From an uncultured Tepidamorphus sp. (GTDB lineage Bacteria > Pseudomonadota > Alphaproteobacteria > Rhizobiales > Tepidamorphaceae), in assembly GCA_905479765.1 (NCBI GenBank), contig CAJQNW010000440.1, forward strand, positions 1 to 38,627: a DNA stretch of 38,627 nt, written 5' to 3'. Below are positions 1 to 1,776 of the stretch, one piece after another. How positions within the stretch are numbered: the stretch's first letter is position 1; each line of letters opens with the position of its first letter. The position numbers and the translations under genes are program-made. Below the pieces are notes generated by a model. That model had not been told where the DNA came from. It searched no databases and saw only the letters and a program-made list of their open reading frames with translations.

Positions 1-1776
1 GTCGAGGACAACCAGACCATCGTGGTCGAGCCGGGCTGGCAGGCGGAGGTGACGGGCAACAACCAGTTGCTGCTGACCCGCTTCGAGGCGAAGGACCGCA
101 CCGCGCCGATCGGCACGCAGGCAGACCCGGTGATGCTGGAGGTGTTCAACAACCTGTTCATGTCGATCGCCGAACAGATGGGCGTAACGCTGGAAAAGAC
201 CGCCTATTCAGTCAACATCAAGGAACGCCTCGACTTTTCCTGCGCGGTCTTCGCCGCCGACGGCGCGCTGATCGCCAACGCCCCGCACATGCCGGTACAT
301 CTGGGCTCCATGGACCGCTCCGTCATGGCGGTGATCGAGCAGAACCCGGTGATCAACCCCGGCGACGTCTACGTGCTGAACGCGCCCTACAACGGCGGCA
401 CGCACCTGCCCGACATCACCGTGGTGACGCCGGTATTCGATGTGGGGGAAGCCCAAGCCTCTCCATCGTCATCGCGGACGGCCGAAGGCCGAGCCGGGAT
501 CGGGGAGCCACAAGAAGGGTCGGGGCTCTCCGATCCCGGCTCTCCGCGCCGCTCCGGCCGGGATGACGATCGAAAGTCAGGAGACATCCTGTTCTGGATC
601 GCCTCGCGCGGCCATCATGCCGATGTCGGCGGCAAGGCGCCGGGCTCGATGACGCCGCGCGCCACGACGATCCAGGAGGAAGGCGTCGTCATCGACAATT
701 TCAAGCTGGTCGACCAGGGCACGTTCCGCGAGGAGGCTCTGCGCGAACTGCTGACGTCCGGCCCCTGGCCCTGCCGCAACCCGGACCAGAACGTCGCCGA
801 CCTGCGCGCCCAGATCGCCGCCAACGAGAAGGGCGTCGCCGAACTCAGGAAGATGGTCGCCCATTTCGGCCTCGACGTCGTGCACGCCTACATGCGGCAC
901 GTTCAGGACAACGCCGAGGAGAGCGTGCGCCGGGTGATCGACGCCCTGCATGACTGTTCGTTCGAATACCCGATGGATCAGGGCACGGTGATCAAGGTGG
1001 CAATCACGCTCGACAAGGCAAAGCGCGAGGCGACCGTCGATTTCACCGGTACCTCGCCGCAACAGCCGACCAACTTCAACGCCCCGCACCCGGTGACACG
1101 CGCCGCCGTGCTTTACGTCTTCCGCTGCATGGTCGACGACGAGATCCCGATGAACGCCGGCTGCCTGAAGCCGATCAACATCGTCATTCCCGACGACTGC
1201 ATGCTGGCGCCGAAGTTCCCCGCAGCCGTCGTCGCCGGCAACGTCGAGGTCAGCCAGGCCGTCACCGACACCCTATTCGGCGCGCTCGGCGCGCTGGCCG
1301 CCGCCCAGGGCACGATGAACAACTTCAACTTCGGCAACGCCAAGTACCAGTATTACGAGACGATCTGCGGCGGCTCCGGCGCCGGCCCCGATTTCGACGG
1401 CACGTCCGCGGTCCACACCCACATGACCAACACCCGCCTGACCGACCCGGAGATCCTCGAATTCCGCTACCCCGTTGTCCTGGAGGACTTCCGCGTCTGC
1501 CGCGGCTCGGGCGGCAGGGGCAAGTGGCACGGCGGCGACGGAACGCTGCGCACCATCCGCTTCCTGGAGGAGATGGACGTGTCGCTGCTCACCGGCCACC
1601 GCAAGGTGCCGCCGTTCGGGCTGGAGGGCGGCTCGCCTGGCGAGTGCGGCGAAAATTCGGTGCGGCGGCTCGACGGCACCATCGAGATATTGGAAGGCTG
1701 CGACCAGACCGTCTGCGCGCCCGGCGAGGCGATCATCATCAAGACGCCGAGCGGCGGGGGATTTGGGAAAGCCTGA
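1..1776 (+). CDS. 5-oxoprolinase / hydantoinase (A-B fusion), C-terminal half, 5' end outside window
   Basis: The frame is open from base 1 and ends at TGA 1774-1776. The first ~25 codons look like the end of the HyuA (ATPase) half (VVEPGWQAEVT), and HyuB begins around DPVMLEVFNN, so this is probably the last half of a fused OPLAH-type enzyme that hydrolyses 5-oxo-L-proline or a hydantoin with ATP. HyuB landmarks are HMPVHLGSM, NAPYNGGTHLPD, ASRGHHADVGG and the terminal GGGFG. One feature is odd: between VFDV and DILFW, where relatives have only a few residues, about 43 extra codons (near 445-573) encode a Ser/Gly/Arg/Asp-rich stretch. They are made from a palindromic DNA repeat, listed separately. 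The frame is intact, so I call a gene and not a pseudogene. The true substrate cannot be told from sequence. Confidence 0.9.
   Translation, partial: VEDNQTIVVEPGWQAEVTGNNQLLLTRFEAKDRTAPIGTQADPVMLEVFNNLFMSIAEQMGVTLEKTAYSVNIKERLDFSCAVFAADGALIANAPHMPVHLGSMDRSVMAVIEQNPVINPGDVYVLNAPYNGGTHLPDITVVTPVFDVGEAQASPSSSRTAEGRAGIGEPQEGSGLSDPGSPRRSGRDDDRKSGDILFWIASRGHHADVGGKAPGSMTPRATTIQEEGVVIDNFKLVDQGTFREEALRELLTSGPWPCRNPDQNVADLRAQIAANEKGVAELRKMVAHFGLDVVHAYMRHVQDNAEESVRRVIDALHDCSFEYPMDQGTVIKVAITLDKAKREATVDFTGTSPQQPTNFNAPHPVTRAAVLYVFRCMVDDEIPMNAGCLKPINIVIPDDCMLAPKFPAAVVAGNVEVSQAVTDTLFGALGALAAAQGTMNNFNFGNAKYQYYETICGGSGAGPDFDGTSAVHTHMTNTRLTDPEILEFRYPVVLEDFRVCRGSGGRGKWHGGDGTLRTIRFLEEMDVSLLTGHRKVPPFGLEGGSPGECGENSVRRLDGTIEILEGCDQTVCAPGEAIIIKTPSGGGFGKA
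465..570. repeat. REP-like inverted repeat inserted in frame inside the oxoprolinase gene
   Basis: The left arm 465-509 starts ATCGTCATCGCGGACGG and ends CCGGGATCGGGGAGCC. The right arm 524-570, read on the other strand, starts ATCGTCATCCCGGCCGG and ends CCGGGATCGGAGAGCC. The arms match except in a short central part, with a 14-nt spacer at 510-523. The pattern GTCATCCCGG...CCGGGATCGG resembles dispersed intergenic palindromes of Rhizobiales; that assignment is from memory. Here it lies inside a reading frame and is translated. I saw no second copy in the window. Confidence 0.8.

Follow-up and report, generated by a model that had tools for sequence, protein, structure and literature searches.

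Palindromic repeats that are dispersed through a genome and lie in frame within open reading frames likely to encode functional proteins are known from Rickettsia as Rickettsia palindromic elements, as summarised in those sections of a 2013 BMC Genomics survey on which we draw (PMC3733652). The same sections report intragenic REPs in several species, among them two Xanthomonas species whose recB genes carry REPs at nearly one position, and discuss neutral loops (PMC3733652). They also describe the CGTC-tagged REPs, which predominate in alphaproteobacteria, carry a terminal unpaired CGTC motif that is often a TGTC or CCTC variant, have a stem that starts with AT and a loop usually of 4-5 bases (other lengths occur in some species), form inverted pairs, and show no association with transposase genes (PMC3733652). 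A further point of reference are the coding palindromes of Nematomorpha mitochondria, which, in the part of the report that we use, are long inverted repeats within functional protein genes (PMC6649704).

The window analysed here, 38,627 nucleotides long, is the entire contig C440 of a fragmented MAG (G000; 521 contigs, 85% completeness) and begins with the HyuB half of a HyuA-HyuB fusion gene, whose frame of 591 residues stays open through a palindromic repeat. The product belongs to the Hydantoinase B/oxoprolinase family by domain (PF02538, E 4.3e-198) and by fold, as its AlphaFold2 model matches 6yra_B (Z 38.5), 5l9w_A (Z 37.0) and 9h03_A (Z 33.3). Most of its nearest homologues are encoded as one frame of about 1200-1300 residues, and Hydant_A_N and Hydantoinase_A domains were detected in the upstream half of a homologue; an orthologous HyuA half was not found in the 85% complete G000 assembly, where the best match has 38% identity. 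Both flanks of the repeat form one strongly coding frame, and the remaining protein aligns well with its homologues. The sequence-only reading had proposed an inverted repeat that adds about 43 codons to a 5-oxoprolinase/hydantoinase with the frame kept, and this is borne out by the arms, the fold and the open frame, the addition being exactly 43 residues relative to the reference homologue L014 (Table 1).

Table 1. Features of the HyuB gene and of the palindromic element within it (positions in the window).
Feature	Position	Strand	Basis or remark
HyuB half (Hydantoinase B/oxoprolinase) of HyuA-HyuB fusion gene	1-1776	+	5' end cut by contig end
Beta-strand before loop, residues 138-146	412-438	+	DSSP of AlphaFold2 model
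Expanded loop, 49 codons, TPVF to ILFW	439-585	+	43 residues more than reference homologue L014
Dispersed palindromic element, conserved core about 458-570 (113 bp)	458-570	+	BLAST to 28 places; consensus of 23 other copies of at least 100 nt
First REP-like unit: CGTC tag 467-470; half-stems 471-477 (one consensus mismatch) and 494-500	467-500	+	Sequence and consensus, by eye
Central hairpin, arms 491-509 / 524-542, 95% complementary	491-542	+	Inverted-repeat arms
Second, inverted REP-like unit: half-stems 533-539 and 558-564; CGTC tag 565-568	533-568	-	Sequence and consensus, by eye
Beta-strand after loop, residues 196-205	586-615	+	DSSP of AlphaFold2 model

The outer inverted arms (459-481/554-576) are 83% complementary, the inner pair 95%. 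When folded as RNA, positions 445-580 reach -81 kcal/mol (z -4.96), and none of 200 shuffles was equally stable; likewise, none of 200 codon shuffles of the loop folded equally well. The element resembles the CGTC-tagged REPs as far as they are described in the sections cited above (PMC3733652), in that its terminal CGTC tags are kept in the consensus, its stem ATCCCGG/CCGGGAT starts with AT, though judged by eye on the consensus it measures 7 bp, and its copies are many, dispersed and built as an inverted pair. The consensus of the 23 other long copies shows the same arrangement, with two inverted units, outward CGTC tags and stems starting with AT. It differs from them in the loops of its units, which are longer than the usual 4-5 bases (PMC3733652): 16 bases separate the half-stems of the first unit, and because of this we call the element CGTC-type and file it under no named family. 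A structured RNA of a known family was considered and rejected, since no Rfam family matched at gathering score in positions 1-2400 of the window. In comparison with the mitochondrial palindromes, the likeness lies in long inverted repeats within functional protein genes, whereas the two mitochondrial arms code for conserved stretches of protein, as far as that report goes (PMC6649704), and the repeat of the window is added, non-conserved sequence.

The element is dispersed in its own genome. A search of G000 gave 52 match rows, which merge into 28 places after two duplicated rows were dropped, and this figure is a lower bound because only 40 of 81 candidates were scored. When the codons of both flanks were scored, the copy in the window alone was clearly coding in one frame on both sides, and 0 of the 27 other places passed, those copies being apparently non-coding. 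The further copies that the sequence-only reading required are present, with at least 28 places counted. The copies L094 and L097 have an identical best frame on both sides, yet fail the coding test: L094 scores close to zero and matches no Pfam family, and in L097 the element contains a stop and one of the flanks scores negative. A second coding copy in G000 was sought in L092, L094, L101 and L104, where a frame runs across a copy, and was rejected; the lyase domain of L092 (PF00221, residues 128-587) begins downstream of the repeat copy, and the frames of L094, L101 and L104 have no Pfam match at E 0.01. As a separate observation, G002, of the same genus, holds many copies of one half of the element only (about query 13-67, around 90% identical), several of which sit within 100 bases of contig starts.

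Most homologues lack the long loop, a point on which the sequence-only reading had proposed a check. In a sample of 397 genomes drawn from a larger group of the order, taken to be Hyphomicrobiales, 227 have a match to the gene at E 1e-50 or better, loop coverage was checked in all 227, and the loop exceeds the usual length by more than 5 residues in 14 of them (G000, G001, G004, G006, G021, G068, G111, G211, G230, G267, G273, G306, G348 and G361), a count that excludes second matches of G169 and G359, so that it may overlook a long loop in an additional gene copy, and from which G154 is absent, its contigs breaking near the loop. In G004 and G211 the long loop is present in one of two gene copies. 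In the named collection, the usual HLPD-RGHH span of 29 residues was found in 75 of 80 relatives, but these are the best 80 of at least 583, a choice that favours short loops, and they were not used for frequency; long loops in named records include those of Aminobacter sp. HY435 (L181) and Mesorhizobium prunaredense (L186). As with the Rickettsia palindromic elements, the in-frame insert, with its 43 extra residues, is thus absent from close homologues, and a conserved functional loop was rejected because most homologues lack the insert and the inserts differ. Within HyuB, such additions are nearly restricted to this loop: among 121 homologues, in which long loops are over-represented because genomes with them were deliberately sought, at least 8 extra residues occur in this loop in 16 and at any other site in 1. 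The off-loop case is L219 (G211), with 24 extra residues at another site in HyuB. One record met among the relatives, L156 (JAHREI010000007.1), is titled Bacillus subtilis and holds a gene 76% identical to the Hyphomicrobiales query protein; it is probably mislabelled or contaminated.

The model of the window HyuB has a mean pLDDT of 82.9, and residues 151-192, between the two strands listed in Table 1, fall below 50. The insert is thus modelled as a disordered peptide in a loop between two strands. As a test for the surface loop that the sequence-only reading had in view, such a segment of low confidence is indirect.

The long loops of different hosts often hold unrelated DNA. Seventeen of them compared by blastn fell into 10 sequence groups, with the G273 loop being partial and the link between G006 and L184 possibly due to low complexity. 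DNA of the loop itself, or of the loop in a close relative, is also present elsewhere in the host genome in 13 of 15 genomes tested (G000, G004, G348, G111, G230, HY435, M. prunaredense, G306, G021, G068, G267, G361 and G273), where part of the G306 loop served as the query for G021 and G068, the G267 loop served for G361, and the recurrence of loop 1 of G230 is weak, consisting of 25-29 nt matches at two other places. The test covered loops other than those of L184 (a Xanthobacteraceae MAG) and L143 and the HyuA loop of HY435, and in G006 and G211 a search of the own genome with the own loop returned only the loops themselves. In addition, for 9 of the 17 loops no more than 1 of 200 codon shuffles folds as well, and the other 8 have no clear excess of structure over such shuffles; those of G267 and G361, although dispersed repeats, fold no better than their codon shuffles. 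In contigs C131 and C116 of G267, the HyuB-loop repeat (roughly 101 bp) also occurs in head-to-tail arrays. The sequence-only reading had named homologues in distant genera that carry the same loop with unrelated DNA as evidence against an inserted repeat. Such homologues do exist and, taken literally, count against the reading, but their loop DNA consists mostly of other dispersed repeats of each host, and the idea of repeat insertion is therefore strengthened. Across related bacteria, the HyuB loop is a recurrent sink for repeats that are unrelated to one another.

A second loop, in the HyuA half, behaves in a similar way. In 56 full-length named homologues, with positions given on L110, at least 8 extra residues follow residue 261 in 17 and residue 584 in 2. 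The six inserts of more than 100 nt after residue 261 (L140, L123, L186, L176, L181 and L133) fold better than codon shuffles, with z-scores of -2.9 to -8.3; the z-scores of very short inserts are unreliable and were left unused. Palindromic inserts occupy the HyuB as well as the HyuA loop in M. prunaredense and HY435, and the HyuA loops of G230 and G068 likewise contain long, repeat-rich inserts. In G230 (L295) this is an in-frame multi-repeat insert that makes the stretch about 105 residues longer than in L282, and it includes a place detected as a dispersed repeat of the G230 HyuB loop. A model of HyuA places the insert (245-287) at low confidence, which is weak evidence for disorder because the mean pLDDT of that model is only 66.

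In-frame copies outside the HyuB loop are few, and in M. prunaredense they share a frame. In HY435, 0 of 20 sampled repeat places (63 match rows) pass the coding test on both flanks. In M. prunaredense (77 match rows) the test is passed by 4 of 40 sampled regions; the query joined HY435 and M. prunaredense sequence, the copies in a region may match one part or the other, and some regions overlap. Copies that scored just above zero on one side (e.g. L241, L249, L265 and L278) were not counted as coding. The passing regions lie in three genes, namely in the HyuA loop of the fusion protein, in the PdhC linker (L225, an in-frame repeat between the lipoyl and E3-binding domains of a dihydrolipoamide acyltransferase, pyruvate dehydrogenase E2-like), and in glycyl-tRNA synthetase beta, where the overlapping regions L237 and L269 show two in-frame inserts with starts 225 residues apart. 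With the HyuB loop included, five M. prunaredense sites in three genes all read ISP..GEM, on the same strand and in one of six frames. Among 42 distinct cores, the numbers that are stop-free in the six frames are 42, 40, 32, 42, 41 and 42. Pure tolerance does not predict this use of a single frame, and leaves it unexplained.

The sister species G001, of the same genus as the window species, has 13 extra codons in the loop. Their mean alignment score against other copies of the window element is 25.6, as compared with 15.3 for shuffled sequence, and 0 of 500 shuffles scored as high, and their best alignment score was matched by 1 of 500 mononucleotide shuffles. G001 thus appears, from these alignments, to keep a short remnant of the element, and the simplest account would be an insertion that predated the split of the two species and was then mostly lost in G001.

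Taking these results together, we consider it highly probable that a CGTC-type REP-like pair landed in a permissive loop, where it was tolerated and translated, and that such loops catch the repeats of each genome. Repeats would multiply and spread through each genome, and in the window species an inverted pair would have entered the HyuB hairpin loop in frame and without a stop, so that its translation adds some 43 disordered residues to an otherwise normal HyuB domain. Most copies within genes would be purged, and those in permissive loops would survive as inert peptide, later to shrink, mutate and decay. If both the HyuB loop and the second loop in the HyuA half tolerate additions, whatever repeat multiplies in a Hyphomicrobiales genome could be caught there. 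Translation of the insert, inertness of the peptide, and a choice of the loop by tolerance rather than by targeting are what we infer from this pattern. As to the mover of the repeats, RAYT seems an unlikely general one, its Y1 transposase domain (PF01797) having been found in 3 of 10 searched genomes; none was detected in G000 (85% complete), HY435 or M. prunaredense.

That many unrelated repeats share the HyuB loop, that several are piled up in the HyuA insert of G230 (L295), and that both loops of M. prunaredense and HY435 hold palindromic inserts would also be expected if the DNA of the loop, or a structure in it, were a preferred landing site, so that the convergence reflected the choice of target and not tolerance. 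Repeats elsewhere are rarely coding, however (0 of 27 in G000, 0 of 20 sampled in HY435 and 4 of 40 sampled regions in M. prunaredense), and we regard targeted entry as improbable. Slightly less probable still is that the inserts are kept for a benefit to the enzyme, such as a binding partner, assembly or stability, or that one frame supplies a useful hydrophilic linker. The five M. prunaredense in-gene copies favour selection of this kind, as they share the ISP..GEM frame though 32 to 42 of the 42 cores are stop-free per frame, but peptides at the same site differ among genera, most homologues have no insert, and G001 would have lost most of its own, if its loop is indeed a remnant.

Technical error was weighed as well, since G000 is a fragmented and incomplete MAG that yielded no orthologous HyuA half, and two contigs of G273 end inside the loop, at the repeat. 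A misjoin induced by the repeat, or a decaying gene or pseudogene, is nevertheless very unlikely, given the single strongly coding frame on both flanks and the good alignment of the rest of the protein, the apparent remnant in G001, and the parallel cases in two named genomes, which lie on contigs of 165 and 551 kb. A more far-reaching proposal is that the two HyuA-HyuB loops and a few further sites (GlyS, the PdhC linker) form an acceptor set shared across the order. Here the repeats would carry a preferred frame that gives a hydrophilic linker and would therefore act as portable, frame-optimised loop inserts, beyond mere tolerance; we put this forward as a speculation that is rather unlikely to hold. 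Capture in permissive loops remains the reading that we prefer.

In-frame palindromes outside Rickettsia were already known, because the sections of the 2013 survey cited above report intragenic in-frame REPs (PMC3733652), and the parallel with the Rickettsia palindromic elements drawn by the sequence-only reading is to be narrowed accordingly. The repeat works like those elements in being dispersed, palindromic and in frame, a likeness of action only; it is not the first such case outside Rickettsia. Unlike in Rickettsia, the repeats of this other order are many, unrelated and found in one loop of one enzyme. As compared with the intragenic CGTC REPs in those sections, among which no hydantoinase case appears (PMC3733652), the convergence on the HyuB loop spans several families and ten sequence groups, and none of the papers listed in our searches of open-licence PMC articles reports HyuB-loop convergence or translated Mesorhizobium REPs. 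The novelty is the convergence of many unrelated repeats on one enzyme loop across genera.

In-frame palindromic repeats have so far mostly been described as scattered across various proteins. In the present case unrelated repeats have come to occupy a single homologous position many times over, and since relatives repeatedly fill the one loop in this way, repetitive DNA keeps creating new protein there. Empty, full and apparent-remnant states of the loop coexist, and direct tests of neutrality, decay rate, targeting and frame selection are therefore possible.
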